Assembly: GCA_013289765.1 (NCBI GenBank)
Contig: JABCZI010000008.1
Location: 62,001 to 126,000 of the forward strand
Source of the DNA: Acidobacteriota bacterium
GTDB lineage: Bacteria > Acidobacteriota > Terriglobia > Terriglobales > Acidobacteriaceae
Direction of reading: 5' to 3'
Length of the DNA stretch: 64,000 nt
Under the pieces are notes generated by a model. The model saw only the letters and a list, made by a program, of their open reading frames with translations, was not told where the DNA came from and did not search any database. Position numbers and translations under genes: made by a program. This document shows, piece after piece, positions 11,666-20,220 of this stretch. Within the stretch, counting starts at the first letter, position 1. Each line of letters starts with the position of its first letter.

Positions 11666-12090
11666 GGATGCTCCGTCTGACGGGACGATCATAGCAGGAG
11701 GAAATCCTTTGCAGCTTTGGTCTCCTTCGTCCGGAGTTGGACCGCTGAGTTGGCCAGACGCGGCATTCAAGCCAACGTGATCAGCCCTGGGCGGCGGAGA
11801 TGTCCATGATCCATGTCGGCTCTAAAGGATCTCCGGAGGGTACGAGCGAATACTTCCGGAAGATGATTCCGATGGGACGGCCGCTGATATTATTTGATTT
11901 CGTACAAGGCATTCTGCGGGGGCTTTTTTTCCGCTGCGCTTCTCTCGCGGTTTTCCCTATCGCCGACTATGACGATCGTTCCAATTACAGGGCACGGACT
12001 AATTTCAGTCTGTTCCATGCTGACGGCGGGAGTTGGTCTCTTGACGCGATGCTTGCTCGGCGCCGAAGTGGTGACTGACAGGGAGGCTTG
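11666..12090. other. Divergent intergenic region, amidohydrolase / multicopper oxidase
   Basis: A 425-bp stretch that should contain divergent promoters for the minus-strand amidohydrolase and the plus-strand oxidase. Several short frames cross it, but none has a domain or convincing initiation site. A GGGAGG site at 12081-12086 serves the oxidase start. Confidence 0.5.
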
Positions 12091-13602
12091 ATGAAGGAAG
12101 TGTTCGACTCCAGACGCAAATTTCTAAAAGCAGCGGGCCTGACGACCGGAGCCGTTTTGCTTTCGTCCGGCAACGTCGTTGCTGAATCCGGCGTATGGCC
12201 ACAGAGCAGCGAGTCACCGGCTGTATCCGAATCCAACTCTGCTGACTATACGCTGCACATCAAGACATCTCCTGTCGAGATCGCACCCAAGAAAATCATT
12301 TCAGCGACTACGTACAACGGGCAATTTCCGGGGCCACTGCTTCGCTTCAAGGAAGACCAGCAGGTCACAGTAGACGTGCTTAACGACACCGATGTACCGG
12401 AACAACTGCACTGGCACGGCCAGACGGTGCCGGTTGACGTGGATGGAGCCGCCGAAGAGGGAACACCATTTATTCCTGCACACGGAAAACGCAGGATCGT
12501 ATTCACTCCGCGACCCGCAGGATTTCGTTTCTATCACACGCACAATCGAGCTGGATCGAATCTTTATGCGGGACAATATGGCGGCGAGGTTGGTCCCGTG
12601 TATATCGAGCCAAAGCATGAGCCAGGCAATTATGACCGCGAGGTGTTTCTTGTGTTGAAAGAGTTCGAGCCAACTTTCAGCCGTGGGGGAGACATGGCCC
12701 AAGACTTCCTGCCGCCGACCATCGTTAAGGCGCTAGAAGAACAAGGCGAGTCGACCATGAAGGCTTCACTCGCCAAGGGCATGCCGCATGGATTCGAAGT
12801 CGGCTACGGTTCTTTTACGATCAATGGCCGGATGCTGCACCACGGGGAGCCCATCCGAGTGAAGCAGGGCGAACGAGTTTTGTTCCATGTGTTGAATGGA
12901 AGCGCGACCGAAATTCGTAGCATTGCCCTGCCGGGCCACTCCTTCCACGTTGTGGCGCTGGACGGAAATCCCGTACCCCACCCGGCAACAGTTCCCGTGC
13001 TCTGGATTGGTACTGCGGAGCGCATTTCTGCGATTGTGGAAATGAAACACCCTGGCGTCTGGATCATGGGTGACCTGGCAGATGACGATCGTCAGCACGG
13101 TATGGGAATCATCGTCGAATACGCGCGATTCAAGGGCAAGGGACAATGGAGTGCACCCCCGCCCCACCGTTGGAACTACGCGCTCTTCGCGAAGCCCGGC
13201 TCTATCGCCGTGCCTCCGGACGAAACCTTCGACATGATCTTTGTGAAGGACAATGCTGCAGAAGACGGCTTCAACCGATGGACGATTAATGGCGCGGCAT
13301 ATCCAATGAGCAATGAAATGGTTCCTGCCTCATTTCACTTGAAGGAGGGCAGGCGCTATCGCATCCACATGCGCAATGCCAGCGACGACATTCATCCCAT
13401 CCATCTTCACCGGCATAGCTTCGAACTCACCCGCTTGGCGGGCAAGGGCACGTCCGGAATCCTCAAGGATGTGGTCATGCTGGGTGGCTATCAGGAGGCC
13501 GAAATCGACTTCGTCGCCAACAATCCAGGACTGACCCTATTCCACTGCCACCAGCAACTGCACATGGATTTCGGATTCATGACCCTGTTTGACTATGTGT
13601 GA
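12091..13602 (+). CDS. Tat-exported multicopper oxidase
   Basis: A 503-residue three-domain multicopper oxidase. The N-terminus has a twin-arginine signal (SRRKFLKAAG then a hydrophobic AVLLSSG), implying export of the folded, copper-loaded enzyme. All four copper-binding motifs are readable: HWHG (107-110), YHTH (148-151), HPIHLHRHSFEL and the C-terminal HCHQQLHMDFGFM supplying the type-1 Cys-His site with methionine. It would couple one-electron oxidation of a phenol, metal ion or similar donor to reduction of oxygen to water; the natural donor is unknown. ATG 12091 follows GGGAGG by four bases; a TTG one codon earlier is possible. No copper chaperone or resistance genes are adjacent. Confidence 0.93.
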   Translation: MKEVFDSRRKFLKAAGLTTGAVLLSSGNVVAESGVWPQSSESPAVSESNSADYTLHIKTSPVEIAPKKIISATTYNGQFPGPLLRFKEDQQVTVDVLNDTDVPEQLHWHGQTVPVDVDGAAEEGTPFIPAHGKRRIVFTPRPAGFRFYHTHNRAGSNLYAGQYGGEVGPVYIEPKHEPGNYDREVFLVLKEFEPTFSRGGDMAQDFLPPTIVKALEEQGESTMKASLAKGMPHGFEVGYGSFTINGRMLHHGEPIRVKQGERVLFHVLNGSATEIRSIALPGHSFHVVALDGNPVPHPATVPVLWIGTAERISAIVEMKHPGVWIMGDLADDDRQHGMGIIVEYARFKGKGQWSAPPPHRWNYALFAKPGSIAVPPDETFDMIFVKDNAAEDGFNRWTINGAAYPMSNEMVPASFHLKEGRRYRIHMRNASDDIHPIHLHRHSFELTRLAGKGTSGILKDVVMLGGYQEAEIDFVANNPGLTLFHCHQQLHMDFGFMTLFDYV

Positions 13603-13842
13603 CGGGATTCGCGGACCTAGAATCGTCGTGCAGATTTTCGGAACCTCTCGTTTCACATGCAAAGAAGTGATCGAACCCATTCAAGTTTGCGATATTAAAC
13701 TCAGCGAGATGGATTTCCAAAGAGGGGCTAAGTGATTTTCTTAATAGGAGTTCCGCGGTCCAGGCTGATGGCTCCAGACCGTGCAGCGAATCGATTGCTT
13801 CGCGGAGTTCTTGTTTTTGAAGCAACGAGGAGGGAATTTCGA
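13603..13842. other. Spacer between the multicopper oxidase and the his regulatory region
   Basis: About 240 bp with no recognisable gene. A minus-strand open frame crosses this region and the his leader into hisI, but it has no domain and conflicts with the attenuator. GAGGAGGGAA at 13828-13837 looks like a strong Shine-Dalgarno, but it only precedes a TTG frame of eight sense codons. Confidence 0.4.
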
Positions 13843-13872
13843 TTGACGGAAAGATGCGGACCGTCCTAACAT
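13843..13872 (+). promoter_or_regulatory. Candidate his operon promoter
   Basis: TTGACG at 13843-13848 (5/6 match to the sigma-70 -35 box) is followed after 18 bp by TAACAT at 13867-13872 (4/6 match to -10). Transcription would start around 13879-13884, at or just before the leader-peptide ATG at 13883. No Shine-Dalgarno precedes that ATG, so a leaderless message is possible. Position relative to the attenuator supports it; strength is untested. Confidence 0.5.
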
Positions 13873-13882
13873 CGAATTGCTT

Positions 13883-13957
13883 ATGACTTCGTTGCACCAC
13901 CACCGTCACCATCATCACCATCATGCGATGAGCGTGTCGGCGGAGGACAACGGATAA
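13883..13957 (+). CDS. hisL: his operon leader peptide (nine histidine codons)
   Basis: A 24-codon open frame ending in TAA at 13955-13957. After M-T-S-L come three His, one Arg and six more His (codons 13895-13924), then A-M-S-V-S-A-E-D-N-G. Nine His in ten consecutive codons immediately before the histidine operon is diagnostic of a his attenuator leader: translation through the run senses charged tRNA-His. The last part of the frame (13933-13943) is also the 5' arm of the predicted antiterminator. There is no Shine-Dalgarno in front of ATG 13883; an in-frame TTG lies at 13877. The exact start is the uncertain point, not the identity. Confidence 0.93.
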   Translation: MTSLHHHRHHHHHHAMSVSAEDNG

Positions 13958-14019
13958 CCAGCTAAGAGCAATAATAGGAAATCCAAGCCCGCTGACGCGA
14001 ACCGCGCAGCGGGTTTTTT
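13933..14019 (+). promoter_or_regulatory. his attenuator: antiterminator/terminator switch
   Basis: Two mutually exclusive structures share 13988-13999. The antiterminator pairs CGTGTCGGCGG (13933-13943, inside the leader frame) with CCGCTGACGCG (13989-13999) in 11 continuous pairs including two G-U. The terminator pairs CCCGCTG (13988-13994) with CAGCGGG (14007-14013). A ribosome stalled on the His codons leaves 13933-13943 free, so the antiterminator forms and the operon is read. A ribosome reaching the stop codon at 13955 covers it, the terminator forms and transcription stops. Pairings are read directly; the mechanism is the established attenuation model. Confidence 0.88.
13988..14019 (+). 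terminator. Intrinsic terminator of the his attenuator
   Basis: The stem CCCGCTG/CAGCGGG continues through a one-base bulge (A13995) into CGCG/CGCG (13996-13999 with 14003-14006) around an AAC loop. That gives 11 pairs, nearly all G-C, followed at once by six T (14014-14019). This is a very strong rho-independent terminator lying 43 bp before hisI. Confidence 0.93.
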
Positions 14020-14062
14020 GTTTCTGCCGCGGTCGCATCAGGAATGGGTAAGAGAGGCTGCG

Positions 14063-14416
14063 ATGGAGATCGACTTCGACAAAATGCAAGGCTTGGCACC
14101 CGCGGTGATTCAGGATGCAGCTAGCGGGGAACTGCTGATGGTGGGCTTTATGAACCGCGAAGCACTGGATACGACTCTGCGAACCCGCTTCGTCACGTTC
14201 TACAGCCGCACGCGACAGACTCTTTGGACAAAAGGAGAAACCTCCGGCAATCGTCTGCAGGTGTTGGCGGCGTGGACGGATTGCGATCACGACACGGTGT
14301 TGCTGCGGGTTCGTGTTTTGGGCGCAGGTAAGGTTTGCCATACAGGATCGCGATCCTGCTTCACTCAGGAACTTGTTTTGGGGAACGCGCTGCTGGAAGA
14401 AGAGGCGCGGCGATGA
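14063..14416 (+). CDS. hisI: Phosphoribosyl-AMP cyclohydrolase
   Basis: A 117-residue enzyme that opens the purine ring of phosphoribosyl-AMP (third step of histidine synthesis). Motifs present: [20 protein letters not shown], the magnesium-binding DCDHD and the zinc cysteines in CHTGSRSCF. It ends right after the cyclohydrolase domain: there is no fused HisE pyrophosphatase domain, and no separate hisE lies in this operon. ATG 14063 has GAGAGG five bases upstream; the frame opens at 14018, inside the attenuator, which is not a plausible start. It overlaps hisG by 4 bp (ATGA). Confidence 0.95.
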
Positions 14417-15282
14417 AACTTCGATTGGGCATTCCCAAGGGGAGTCTGCAGGAAGCGACGCTTAGTTTGTTCACCCGCGCCGGACTGCGCGTGTACACCA
14501 GTGCGCGCTCTTATTTCGCCGCAACAGATGATCCGGAAATTGAATGTTTGCTGATTCGTGCACAGGAAATGGCGCGCTATGTTGAACACGGCGCGCTGGA
14601 TGCAGGCCTGACCGGTCTCGATTGGGTGCTCGAAAGCGGGCTCGAGGTCGTGAGCGTCGCCGACCTGATCTACGCGAAGCAGAGCATGGGAAAAGTGAAG
14701 TGGGTGTTGGCGGTGCCGGAGGATTCGAACTTTCAGAAACCTGAAGACCTTGCCGGCCGCATCGTGGCCACCGAGCTGGTAAGTTTCACGCGAAGTTACT
14801 TCGCCCGCCGGAATGTTCCGGTGAGAGTCGAGTTCTCTTGGGGCGCAACGGAAGTGAAGCCGCCGTTGCTGGCGGATGCGATTGTAGAAGTCACTGAGAC
14901 CGGAAGTTCGTTGCGAGCGAACCATCTAAAAATTATTGAGACGGTGCTGGAATCGAACACGCAACTGGTGGCGAACAAGACCGCGTGGGCCGATCCTGAC
15001 CGAAAACGCAAGATTGAAAATCTGGCCGTGATGCTGAGTGGAGCGATGGCGGCGCATGGCCGGGTCGGGTTGATGCTTAACGTGCGGAAACCGGATCTGG
15101 CGGCCGTTCTCGGCCTGCTCCCCGCGCTGAAGAATCCGACCGTTGCGCCGCTAGCCGATGGAGAGTGGGTCGCGGTCAACACGATCATCGAAGAGCAAAC
15201 CGCCTGGACGCTGATTCCGAAGCTCAAGCAAGCGAATGCGCAGGGGATCGTCGAGTATCCGCTGAACAAGGTGGTGATGTGA
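14413..15282 (+). CDS. hisG: ATP phosphoribosyltransferase, long form
   Basis: A 289-residue HisG catalysing the first, committed step (ATP + PRPP). It opens with [15 protein letters not shown]. It has the bilobal catalytic region with [14 protein letters not shown] and [12 protein letters not shown], the PRPP-binding loop. A C-terminal ~75-residue regulatory domain (from about [10 protein letters not shown] to the end) marks it as the hexameric, histidine-feedback-inhibited long form, so no HisZ partner is needed. ATG overlaps the hisI stop by 4 bp and its own stop overlaps the hisD start by 1 bp (TGATG). Confidence 0.96.
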
Positions 15283-16535
15283 TGCGCCTTCGAATTCTTG
15301 ACGGGTCGAAGAGGGACCGCTTCGTACGTGCGCTGGAGCAGCGTGGTTCGACTGACCTGACTCAAGTTGAGCCTGCGGTGCGGCGCATCGTGAACGATGT
15401 CCGGCGCAACGGCGATCGAGCTTTGCGCCGCTACGCGTCACGATGGGACGGATTGGGAAAGAGCGAACCTGTGCGCGTGTCCCAGGCCGAACTGCACGAG
15501 GCTTGGCAGAAAACCTCTCCGGAATTGCAGGAAGCGATCCAGCAGGCAGCAAGCAACATCCGACGCTACTGCGAATGGCAGAAACCGGAGGAGTGGCGGC
15601 GCGAAATTCACCCGGGAGTTTGCGTCGGCCAATTGGTGCGTCCGCTGGAATCGGTGGGCTGCTATGTGCCCGGTGGGCGGTATCCTTTGCCTTCGACGTT
15701 GCTGATGACGGTGATACCGGCACAGGTCGCGGGCGTGCCGCAGATTCGCGTAGCGTCGCCGCATCCGGCGCAGGCAACGTTGGCGGCAGCAGCGTTTCTT
15801 GGGGTGCGTGAAATCTATCGTGTGGGTGGCGCTCAGGCAATCGCGGCCCTAGCCTATGGCACCGAGAGCATCCCTCGCGTAAACAAGCTCGTCGGTCCCG
15901 GCAACCGGTACGTGACGGCAGCCAAGAAACTCGTGGCGTTCGATTGTGCTATCGAATTCCTGGCTGGTCCTACGGAAGCAGTATTCATCAGCGAGGAGGG
16001 CGATCCAGTTCTCATTGCGTGTGACTTGGTGGCGCAGGCGGAGCACGATACTGACGCGCTGTGCGTCTTGCTTACGAATTCGGGTGACTTGGCGGAGGCC
16101 GTGCAGACGGAAGTGCAGCGGCGCACCAAGACGAATCCAGTTGCCGCAGAATCGCTGGCCGGGCGTGGCGCCATTCTGTTGGTGAGTACGCTTGATGAGG
16201 CTGTCGAGATGGCGAACCGGATCGCGCCTGAGCATCTCACGCTGCCGGCCGCACTTGCACCAGCAGTTCAAAATGCGGGTTCGATTTTTCTGAACGAGTT
16301 CACGCCCCAATCTGCAGGGGACTACATCTCAGGCCCGAATCACGTTCTGCCAACCGGAGGGATGGCACTCGTGCGCGGCGGGCTGAGTGTTCTGGATTAT
16401 GTTCGCATAATTTCTTGCCAGGAAATTTCCCGCAAGGGCATTCGCGAGATTGCGCCACCCGGCATTGTGTTGGCCGAAGCCGAGGGTCTGCGCGGACACG
16501 CGGAATCGCTACGGGTGAGGTGCTCTCATGCTTGA
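15282..16535 (+). CDS. hisD: Histidinol dehydrogenase
   Basis: A 417-residue zinc- and NAD-dependent enzyme performing the last two oxidations, histidinol to histidine. Motifs: VPGGRYPLPSTLLM, VGGAQAIAALAYG, VDKLVGPGN-like NKLVGPGNRYVTAAK, zinc ligands in AQAEHDTDA and the late EFTPQSAGDYISGPNH segment with the catalytic/zinc residues. The start ATG shares a base with the hisG stop; the frame runs on upstream, but only inside hisG. It overlaps hisC by 8 bp. Nothing unusual. Confidence 0.97.
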   Translation: MRLRILDGSKRDRFVRALEQRGSTDLTQVEPAVRRIVNDVRRNGDRALRRYASRWDGLGKSEPVRVSQAELHEAWQKTSPELQEAIQQAASNIRRYCEWQKPEEWRREIHPGVCVGQLVRPLESVGCYVPGGRYPLPSTLLMTVIPAQVAGVPQIRVASPHPAQATLAAAAFLGVREIYRVGGAQAIAALAYGTESIPRVNKLVGPGNRYVTAAKKLVAFDCAIEFLAGPTEAVFISEEGDPVLIACDLVAQAEHDTDALCVLLTNSGDLAEAVQTEVQRRTKTNPVAAESLAGRGAILLVSTLDEAVEMANRIAPEHLTLPAALAPAVQNAGSIFLNEFTPQSAGDYISGPNHVLPTGGMALVRGGLSVLDYVRIISCQEISRKGIREIAPPGIVLAEAEGLRGHAESLRVRCSHA

Positions 16536-17619
16536 AGCGCGTGCCGCGGTAAAGAATTTGCATGCCTACCGGCCGCCGCTGGCCGGGCGTCAGGGACTGC
16601 GTCTTGATTTCAACGAGAGCACCGTTGGCTGCTCGCCACGGGTGCTGGAGAAGTTGCATTCTCTGGACGCCGAAACCTTGGCACGCTATCCCGAGCGTGA
16701 ACCGGTAGAGGGAGAAGTGGCTGATTTTCTGGGGCTCAATGCGGCGCAGGTTCTGTTGACGAACGGAGTGGACGAGGCGATCCATCTGCTTTGCTCGACT
16801 TATCTGGAGCCTGGAGACGAAGCCATCATCGTCGTGCCGACGTTTGCGATGTATGCAATCTTTGCCCAGGCGGAAGGCGCCCGCGTAATTCAGATTCTAT
16901 CCGGCGAGAATTTCGCGTTTCCATTGGAAGCCCTGCTGGCACAGATCAGCGCGCGGACTCGACTGATCGCGGTCGCGAATCCCAACAATCCAACCGGGGC
17001 GGCAGTGGCATGCAAGATTCTGCTTCAGGTCGCTCAGGTTGCGCCGCAAGCCGCCCTTCTGGTGGACGAAGCATATTTCGAATTTCACGGCGACACGTTC
17101 CTTAACTCCCGCGACCGGCCGGCGAATCTGTTCGTAGCCCGAACATTTTCCAAAGCCTATGGATTGGCCGGCCTTCGTATCGGCATTCTCGCCGGAGATT
17201 CAGGACAGATGGCGATGGTGCGCCGCGTCGCCTCGCCCTACAACGTGAATGCGGTCGCTCTGACGGTGTTGCCCGAGGCGCTCCGCGATCAGGAGTGCGT
17301 AAAAAACTATGTCGCCGAGGTGCAGCATGGCCGAGGACTATTGGAGCAGGAACTTCGAACCCTCGGTCTGCATTATTGGCCAAGCCGTGCCAATTTTGTG
17401 CTGGTGCGCATCGGTCCCGCTCATACGGAATTCGTTCAGGCATTGCGCGCCCGGGGCATATTGGTGCGCGACAGAAATTCCGATCCAGGATGCGAAGGTT
17501 GCGTGCGCTTGACCGTAGGATCGACCGAACACACGAGAATGCTGATCAGCACGCTGCGCGATGTGGTCGCGCACCTTAAAGACCGCCGCGAGAAAGAACG
17601 CCGCGAGGTACGGGTATGA
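16528..17619 (+). CDS. hisC: Histidinol-phosphate aminotransferase
   Basis: A 363-residue fold-type I PLP aminotransferase converting imidazole-acetol phosphate to histidinol phosphate with glutamate. It has LDFNEST near the N-terminus, NPNNPTG (151-157), LVDEAYFEF (178-186) and the PLP lysine K209 in [14 protein letters not shown]. Position between hisD and hisB, with overlaps on both sides (8 and 4 bp), makes the histidine role clear; broad-specificity aminotransferases would otherwise be hard to separate. Confidence 0.95.
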
Positions 17620-18203
17620 GGAGAGCGAAGCTTCATCGTGAGACCGCGGAAACGGAGATCCAGATTGCACTCACCATTGAAGGTCGTGGGAAATACGAAA
17701 TTTCCACGGGCATCCGTTTTCTCGACCACATGATGGAACTCTTTACTCGGCACGGCGGATTCGATCTGAAACTCACGGCGACAGGCGACCTGGACGTGGA
17801 CCAGCACCACACCGTGGAAGACGTTGGCATTGCTCTGGGCGAGGTCTTCGATCGCGCACTGGGCGATCGGCGCGGAATTCTGCGCGCCGGATATTTTGTT
17901 ATGCCTATGGATGAAACTCTCGGCCTCGCCGCCGTCGATTTCGGAGGACGCGCGGCCGCGGTGGTCGATACCAAAGTCCGTGCAGTGCGAGTGGGCGATC
18001 TGCAAGTGGAACTGGTGGCCGATTTCTTCGAAGGCTTTGCTCGGGGTGCGCGCGCCAATGTTCATGCGCGTGTCCTTTATGGACGCTCCACCCATCACAA
18101 GATCGAAGCGCTCTTCAAGGCTTTCGCGCGCGCCTTGCGCGTGGCGTGCTCGCGCGATCGGAGGCTGGGCCGCATGCTGCCGAGCACTAAGGGACTTTTA
18201 TGA
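17616..18203 (+). CDS. hisB: Imidazoleglycerol-phosphate dehydratase
   Basis: A 195-residue monofunctional dehydratase; the histidinol-phosphatase domain found in enteric HisB is absent. Manganese-binding repeats are visible as [27 protein letters not shown] and [13 protein letters not shown]. Expected to form 24-mers. ATG overlaps the hisC stop by 4 bp, and its stop overlaps the hisH start by 4 bp. No histidinol-phosphatase gene is recognised in the operon, so that activity must come from elsewhere in the genome. Confidence 0.96.
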
Positions 18204-18790
18204 TCGCTATCGTAGATTACGGAGCGGGCAATCTGAATTCCGTGAAGAAGGCGTTCGACTATCTGGGTGCCGAGGTTGTGCTGACGGACCAGCCTGAAAC
18301 TGTTGCTGCCGCGAGCAAGATCGTACTGCCCGGTGTGGGGCATTTTTCGTCGCTTCGAGCGCTGGAAGCTACAGGCTTGCGGAAGGCTTTGATACAAAAC
18401 GCTTCAGCCGGAAAACCGTTTCTCGGAATTTGCCTGGGCATGCAGTGGCTTTTTCAGGGAAGTGAAGAGTGCCGCGATGTTGCGGGAGCGGCACTGTTTC
18501 CCGGAAAGTGCCAGCAGTTTCCTTCGGACGTGAAGTCGCCGCACGTCGGTTGGAATTCTTTGACGGTTCAAAACCGTTCACGATTGTTTCGGGGCGTCGC
18601 ACAAGATTCGTTTGTGTACTACACGCATTCGTTTTATGCACCTGTCGTGACGGAGACCGCGGCGGCCAGCGAATACGGGCTTTGGTTCGCGGGCGCCGTT
18701 GAGCTGGGCAATATTTTTGGAGTGCAATTCCATCCTGAGAAATCAGGGGACGTAGGGCTCGCCATCCTGAAGAATTTCTGTGAGGTCTAA
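18200..18790 (+). CDS. hisH: Imidazole glycerol phosphate synthase, glutaminase subunit
   Basis: A 196-residue class I glutamine amidotransferase that delivers ammonia to HisF. The triad is visible: nucleophile C78 in GICLGMQ, with H178 and E180 in [10 protein letters not shown]. It opens with [12 protein letters not shown], typical of HisH. Overlaps hisB by 4 bp and ends directly before the hisF TTG start, which fits tight co-translation of the two subunits. Confidence 0.96.
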
Positions 18791-19552
18791 TTGTTGACCA
18801 AACGCATCATCGCCTGCCTCGACATGGATGGCGGCCGCGTTGTGAAGGGTGTCCGATTTAAGAATTTGCGCGACGCCGGTGATCCGGCGGAGTGTGCCAC
18901 AGCCCATGCTCGCAACGGCGCGGATGAAATCGTGCTGCTCGATATCACCGCGACCAGCGGAAACCGGCGAACGCTGCTGGACGCAGTCCGCGGCACGGCT
19001 CGCTCGCTGTTCGTTCCGTTTACTGTGGGGGGAGGAATTCGCCGGCTCGAAGACGCAGTGGCAGTCTTCGATGCGGGCGCTGACAAGATTGCGATTAACT
19101 CGGCCGCAGTGCGCGACCCCGCATTGATCGGCAAGATCGCAGGGCGGTTTGGTTCCCAGGCGGTTGTGGTGGCAATTGATGCAAGAAAAGTTGCGGGAGG
19201 TTTTGAAGTGTTCGTTGCCGGAGGACGCGAGCCCACCGGCCGCGACGCCATTCAATGGGCGCGGGAGGCGGCCGCTTGCGGAGCAGGTGAGATCCTGCTG
19301 ACATCGATGGACCGTGATGGAACGCAATCGGGTTTTGACTGCGGGCTCGTGCGCGCCGTGGCGGAATCGGTTTCGATTCCAGTCATTGCCTCAGGGGGGG
19401 CTGGATCAGCGCGCGATTTTATCGAAGTGTTTCGTGACGGACGCGCCGACGCTGCCCTGGCTGCGTCCATCTTTCATTTCGGCATTGAGAACATCGCGCA
19501 ATTGAAGCGTGAACTACATAACGCCAGTGTCCCGGTGAGGTGGCCGTGTTAA
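18791..19552 (+). CDS. hisF: Imidazole glycerol phosphate synthase, cyclase subunit
   Basis: A 253-residue (beta-alpha)8 barrel that uses HisH ammonia to form imidazole glycerol phosphate and AICAR. Catalytic aspartates are D11 in IACLDMDGG and the one in VVVAIDARK. Phosphate-binding turns are FTVGGGIR and IASGGAGSA. The likely start is TTG 18791, right after the hisH stop, with GAGG five bases upstream; no ATG fits. The C-terminus overlaps hisA by 7 bp. Confidence 0.95.
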
Positions 19553-20220
19553 TTCCGTCGATTGATCTTATGGGCGGCAAGATTGTGCAGTTGGTGCAAG
19601 GCGAGAAAAAAGCGTTGGAGTTCGACGACTTCGATTATTGGATCGCGCGATTCTCTAAGTATCCTCTGGTGCAGGTGATCGACCTCGACGCGGCTCGGGG
19701 TGTTGGAAATAACTGCGCGATTGTGGCTCAGATTGTCCGGCGGCTCCCATGCCAGGTCGGGGGAGGGATTCGCTCCGCCGAAACCGCGCAAAAGCTTTTA
19801 GACGCCGGAGCCCGCAGAGTCATTTTCGGTTCTGTGTTGTTGAAAGATGGCGAAATCGACACCGAGTATTCCGCAGCGCTGGCCACGTCACTGGGCAGTG
19901 CGCCGCTGGTATTTGCTCTCGACTCACGCGGCGGCCGGGTTGCGATTGATGGCTGGCGTAAAGGGACTGCCGTTACCGCGTTTGACATGATTCGCGCTCT
20001 GGAACCTTTCTGCGAAACTTTTCTCTACACCCACATCGACACGGAAGGATTGATGGGAGGAATTCCGATGGACGTGGTCAGTGAAATTCGCAAAGCCACT
20101 TCGCGGCGACTGGTAGTCGCCGGCGGCATAAAGACTCAGCAAGAGATCGATAGCCTCGACGGGTTGGGGATGGACGCCGTCGTCGGGATGGCTTTGTATT
20201 CAGGCCGGCTCTCAGCCTGA
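19546..20220 (+). CDS. hisA: ProFAR isomerase
   Basis: A 224-residue (beta-alpha)8 barrel performing the Amadori isomerisation that feeds HisF. Motifs: [15 protein letters not shown] with the first catalytic Asp, [17 protein letters not shown] and [10 protein letters not shown]. The GTG at 19546 is chosen because it gives the usual M-L-I-P start and has GAGG five bases upstream; GTG 19540 is an alternative adding two residues. It is slightly short for the family (about 240). Last gene of the operon; no strong terminator was seen after it. Confidence 0.94.

Follow-up and report, generated by a model that had tools for sequence, protein, structure and literature searches.

The his operon in the window, by which we mean the whole 64,000-nucleotide stretch of DNA that was analysed, is in all probability preceded by a ribosome-mediated transcription attenuator whose leader peptide would be translated from a leaderless mRNA. 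Ribosome-mediated transcription attenuation is a textbook mechanism, and its sequence features were found here: a short, His-rich open reading frame, an intrinsic terminator before hisI and an antiterminator that excludes it. The His codons, their place relative to the antiterminator 5' arm, the alternative stems and the operon that follows are jointly explained by transcription attenuation. An earlier, sequence-only reading of this DNA had proposed a His attenuator; the sequence-based refutation checks that we ran lend the proposal support, as none of them spoke against it. To that reading our analysis adds a promoter with a predicted leaderless start, a third (1:2) hairpin and a distribution over much of the phylum. 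The features, all on the + strand, are as follows.

13843 to 13872, +: sigma-70-type promoter, TTGACG-N18-TAACAT (consensus match, spacing conserved in relatives)
13883 to 13957, +: leader peptide MTSLHHHRHHHHHHAMSVSAEDNG, predicted leaderless (24 codons plus TAA)
13888 to 13954, +: 1:2 hairpin of the His-codon region and the antiterminator 5' arm (-27.3 kcal/mol, z -3.2)
13895 to 13924, +: control codons, nine His among codons 5 to 14, segment 1 (sequence, genome pattern search)
13933 to 13943, +: segment 2, the antiterminator 5' arm, lying in leader codons 17 to 21 (pairing tests)
13958 to 13984, +: linker of 27 nt from the leader stop to the terminator, which is also the antiterminator loop (genus-conserved words AGCACT/TAGGAA)
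13985 to 14019, +: intrinsic terminator, segments 3:4, with a T6 tract at 14014 to 14019 (folding, stem covariation)
13989 to 13999, +: segment 3, serving both as antiterminator 3' arm and as terminator 5' arm (folding, duplex)
14063 to 14416, +: hisI (phosphoribosyl-AMP cyclohydrolase), the first structural gene (NF000768, 135 bits, cut-off 126)
14413 to 20220, +: hisG, hisD, hisC, hisB, hisH, hisF and hisA, the downstream operon (NCBIfam)

Leader frame, promoter and predicted start

The 24-codon frame with nine His in ten codons that had been described earlier was borne out by direct reading of 13883 to 13957, where His occupies codons 5 to 7 and 9 to 14 of MTSLHHHRHHHHHHAMSVSAEDNG. From base composition, the chance expectation for at least nine His per ten codons is about 5e-8 per 64-kb window. 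A pattern search of the 4.8-Mb genome found runs of five His codons at two sites only, one of them the his leader. Downstream, the assignment of hisA is to its best NCBIfam family, with a match below the curated cut-off. The gene directly upstream of the his leader (12088 to 13602) encodes a multicopper-oxidase-like protein with a Tat signal.

Ten nucleotides separate the end of the promoter in the window, TTGACG-18-TAACAT, from the leader ATG; transcription is predicted to start at about 13879 to 13880, 3 to 4 nt 5' of that ATG. The promoter matches 9 of 12 consensus positions; chance would give 0.4 sites of this quality in the region. We evaluated promoter placement in 85 leaders by locating the best-scoring promoter in the 100 nt that precede the leader ATG; to avoid circularity, the leader start was set, with promoters ignored, at the first in-frame ATG met on going upstream from the His block. 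The best promoter ended 6 to 12 nt before the ATG in 78 of the 85 (mode 9), as against 9% in shuffled sequence, and a promoter score of at least 12 was reached in 79% of leaders compared with 2% of shuffled sequence. No Shine-Dalgarno sequence above shuffle level was found before the leader start (-1.25 kcal/mol; shuffled -1.56), in contrast to hisI, which has a strong one (-6.5 kcal/mol). Given a near-consensus promoter so close to the leader ATG and the lack of a Shine-Dalgarno sequence, translation of a leaderless mRNA is very probable, and within the attenuation reading we hold with high confidence that the leader peptide would be made in this way. A study of 953 bacterial genomes recognised leaderless genes by a -10-like element some 12 bp upstream of the start codon; all three Acidobacteria that it covered had such genes, on average 13.3% (PMC3160421).

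The same attenuator could instead carry an ordinary 5' UTR, with the true promoter further upstream and the near promoter minor or false. The start sites are predictions, and a 9/12 match with 0.4 chance sites expected would be compatible with this alternative. The placement of the best promoter in 78/85 relatives argues against it, as does the strong Shine-Dalgarno sequence of hisI beside a leader signal no better than that of shuffled sequence, and we consider it unlikely.

Alternative stems and proposed mechanism

The competing G-C terminator with six T, noted before at 43 bp upstream of hisI, was recovered: the G+C-rich hairpin at 13985 to 14016 has a free energy of -22.6 kcal/mol (z -4.9), a stability that all 200 shuffles failed to reach, TTTTTT stands at 14014 to 14019, and hisI starts at 14063. 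A simple terminator scanner did not include the his-leader terminator in its list, probably because of a bulge in the hairpin. Also present is the 11-bp pairing of 13933 to 13943 with 13989 to 13999, an antiterminator duplex of -22.2 kcal/mol that is mutually exclusive with the terminator. The His codons in turn pair with the antiterminator 5' arm, which completes the classical set of 1:2, 2:3 and 3:4 hairpins. The entire leader region is more stably folded than its shuffles (z -4.6).

Covariation, to which the sequence-only reading had looked for confirmation of both stems, was found for the terminator, and the antiterminator pairing is kept across families as the sequence changes. In a family alignment of 27 sequences the terminator stem scored 0.110 against 0.069 shuffled, and 0/500 shuffles scored as high. 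The antiterminator shows standard pairs in 92.3% of the cells of this alignment, a value matched by 2 of 500 shuffles and falling to 23-52% once the arms are slid. Its changes within the family are mostly one-sided (for example G-C to G-U), and here covariation is weak, with both sides changed at only 2 pairs and 115/500 shuffles as high. Among 30 distant representatives, the leaders' own 2:3 arms pair at -22.7 kcal/mol, as against -19.0 kcal/mol (sd 0.5) for permuted arms, with 0/20000 permutations as low; the own arms of the distant leaders L094, L135, L143 and L177 pair no better than others' arms. Own 1:2 pairing likewise surpasses permuted pairing (-22.7 vs -19.3), with 0/20000 permutations as good in 25 representatives.

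The median start of segment 2 in the 90 leaders is leader nucleotide 50, right behind the His block. A ribosome usually covers about 13 nt beyond its A site; assuming this value, 6 of 7 His codons leave segment 2 free in most leaders, and 84 of 90 leaders have at least 3 such codons. This agrees with the earlier suggestion that, with the antiterminator 5' arm inside the leader frame (codons 17 to 21 in the window), the position of the ribosome would be decisive.

These data lead us to propose a mechanism in which the point of initiation, the translation of a leaderless message, the stalling of the ribosome and the response to histidine are inferred computationally from the DNA. RNA polymerase would start 0 to 4 nt upstream of the leader's ATG, with a ribosome then beginning at the 5' end of the nascent RNA. 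When charged tRNA-His is scarce, the ribosome would stall in the His block with segment 2 uncovered. Since in most leaders a ribosome at 6 of 7 His codons would not reach segment 2, a stall would permit 2:3 pairing; no terminator would then form and the his genes would be transcribed. With plentiful histidine the ribosome would reach the stop codon and cover segment 2, so that segments 3 and 4 pair and transcription would stop at the T tract. If the leader were not translated at all, the His-codon segment would pair with segment 2 in the 1:2 hairpin and the terminator would again form.

Leader translation might alternatively act on translation of hisI, by altering access to its ribosome-binding site, and hisI does have its own Shine-Dalgarno sequence downstream of the terminator. 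In nearly every relative, however, the antiterminator arm has a T-tract terminator hairpin as its other pairing, not that Shine-Dalgarno sequence, and the spacing from terminator to hisI varies; translational control therefore appears very improbable beside transcription attenuation.

Leaders among the Acidobacteriota

The search for hisI covered 61 related genomes, a set of about 300 from across the phylum and named genome contigs, and the DNA upstream was then read; most of the relatives compared are metagenome-assembled genomes (MAGs). A His-rich leader with a terminator precedes hisI at 102 loci, 90 of them distinct. Leaders are 19-33 codons long, mostly 19-28, except for a longer one from a MAG whose sequence has undetermined bases. 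The own genus and family carry them, as do order- and class-level relatives, the phylum-level families f23, f32, f41, f51, f53, f65, f69 and f81 and one f36 genome, where the f-numbers are computed kinship labels. The conservation of His codons expected among relatives holds for all 90 distinct leaders, though the search itself selected for a dense His block and would have missed leaders of other design. Each leader has a median of 7 His, and the 90 together contain 306 CAC and 342 CAT, a mixture which indicates conservation as His rather than as a fixed RNA sequence. Outside the His block little of the peptide is conserved between families. A T-tract terminator hairpin is present in nearly every relative, at a variable distance to hisI. 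In the linker, the word AGCACT occurs in 21 and TAGGAA in 17 of the 31 own-genus leaders, and AGGATT occurs in 11 of the 59 others; shuffled sequence gave no more than 7.

The leader is present at 40 of the 67 loci of the phylum sample. At 26 of the 27 leader-free loci hisI is preceded by another long frame or by HisF/HisA-like motifs, indicating that hisI is not the operon head there. The regions upstream of hisG in 20 genomes lacking a hisI leader held no leader except one weak candidate (L272, genome G095), LKASLHIHLCHHHVHTIRRVG, which lies about 155 to 89 bases before hisG and has a poor promoter; in the family of L272 hisI is not the operon head. For trpE, ilvB and leuA, a scan for a promoter plus a short open reading frame in 67 upstream regions from 25 related genomes gave a handful of matches, and none of the short frames in those 67 regions was rich in the expected amino acid. 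No His leader was seen at the few loci checked among Bacteroidota and Desulfobacterota relatives of hisI.

Poly-His peptides bind metals and the upstream gene is multicopper-oxidase-like, but we give almost no credence to a free-standing metal-binding peptide with its own terminator beside a his operon transcribed from another promoter, given the tight linkage of the frame to operon-head hisI in many families, its absence where hisI is not the head, an antiterminator pairing that families retain at a constant position after the His block, and the scant conservation of the peptide outside that block.

Among named records, the nearest hisI loci belong to Acidobacteria gp1/Terriglobia MAGs, which supports the acidobacterial origin proposed earlier. 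The record DYJN01000006.1 (L074), titled Arcobacter sp., has a His leader and hisI that resemble those of the acidobacterial groundwater MAG L081, and is probably misnamed. One locus, L045 (QIAN01000162.1, region 765 to 1500), was a candidate for a close relative without leader; we rejected it, as the leader is present and displaced from hisI by a group II intron (RF02001, 76 bits). This intron is about 500 nt long, starts with GTGTG, leaves no room for a maturase gene and follows immediately on the T tract of the attenuator's terminator (TTTTTGTT / TCTGTCGCGGG). Bacterial class C introns are known to have targets of this sort. The contig of L002/L048 ends in a sequence like the intron end of L045, 70 nt before hisI.

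Relation to known attenuators

One of the closest counterparts is the enteric his attenuator (hisL, RF00514), which shares the peptide with a run of His, the alternative hairpins, the intrinsic terminator and the his operon downstream. Enteric his attenuators follow a six-segment A-F scheme. The acidobacterial leader differs in having three alternative helices (1:2, 2:3 and 3:4, as in trp) instead of these six segments, in lacking a start led by a Shine-Dalgarno sequence, and in standing before an operon in which hisI, not hisG, comes first. The RF00514 His_leader covariance model scored 24.4 bits on the leader (E 0.06; gathering score 49), and the genome as a whole contained no match to this family. 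The acidobacterial leader would work like the enteric His_leader, though with half of the gathering score it is not a member of the family as modelled. No T-box was found with the Rfam model, either at gathering score in the window or among weak matches in 13700 to 14100.

It may be, although we would stop short of calling it probable, that these leaders form a phylum-level, separately evolved class of his attenuator with leaderless initiation built into the design, confined to hisI-headed operons and without counterparts for trp, ilv or leu. If so, a ribosome that loads on the first RNA bases could sense charged tRNA-His almost at once, with a leader of mostly 19-28 codons. The 90 conserved leaders are a ready family for an RNA model and offer a way into the gene regulation of a little-studied phylum that is abundant in soil. 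They also provide a test of whether ribosome-mediated attenuation can operate with leaderless initiation as the rule.

In the literature, which we covered incompletely, no his attenuator was found reported for Acidobacteriota, nor a leaderless one anywhere. A 2010 screen had almost no predicted acidobacterial attenuators with an assigned function (PMC2965389), and a 2022 paper places his attenuators in Proteobacteria (PMC9413887). Outside Proteobacteria, leaders with His codons have been predicted in bacilli before hisZ and a hisS paralogue (PMC2965389), which are other genes in another phylum, while hisD of C. glutamicum has no His leader frame (PMC3896937).

For the predicted leaderless start there are two parallels. 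The ilvBNC operon of C. glutamicum has a leaderless ilvL, whose start codon lies one nucleotide from +1, and combines a terminator, an antiterminator and an anti-antiterminator, as does the acidobacterial leader (PMC11857589); it differs in responding to branched-chain amino acids and in belonging to Actinobacteria, and a sequence relation is not expected. In S. meliloti the trpL transcript starts at the leader ATG and is likewise leaderless (PMC7298713), but that leader serves tryptophan in an alphaproteobacterium, and its released RNA and peptide act in trans.
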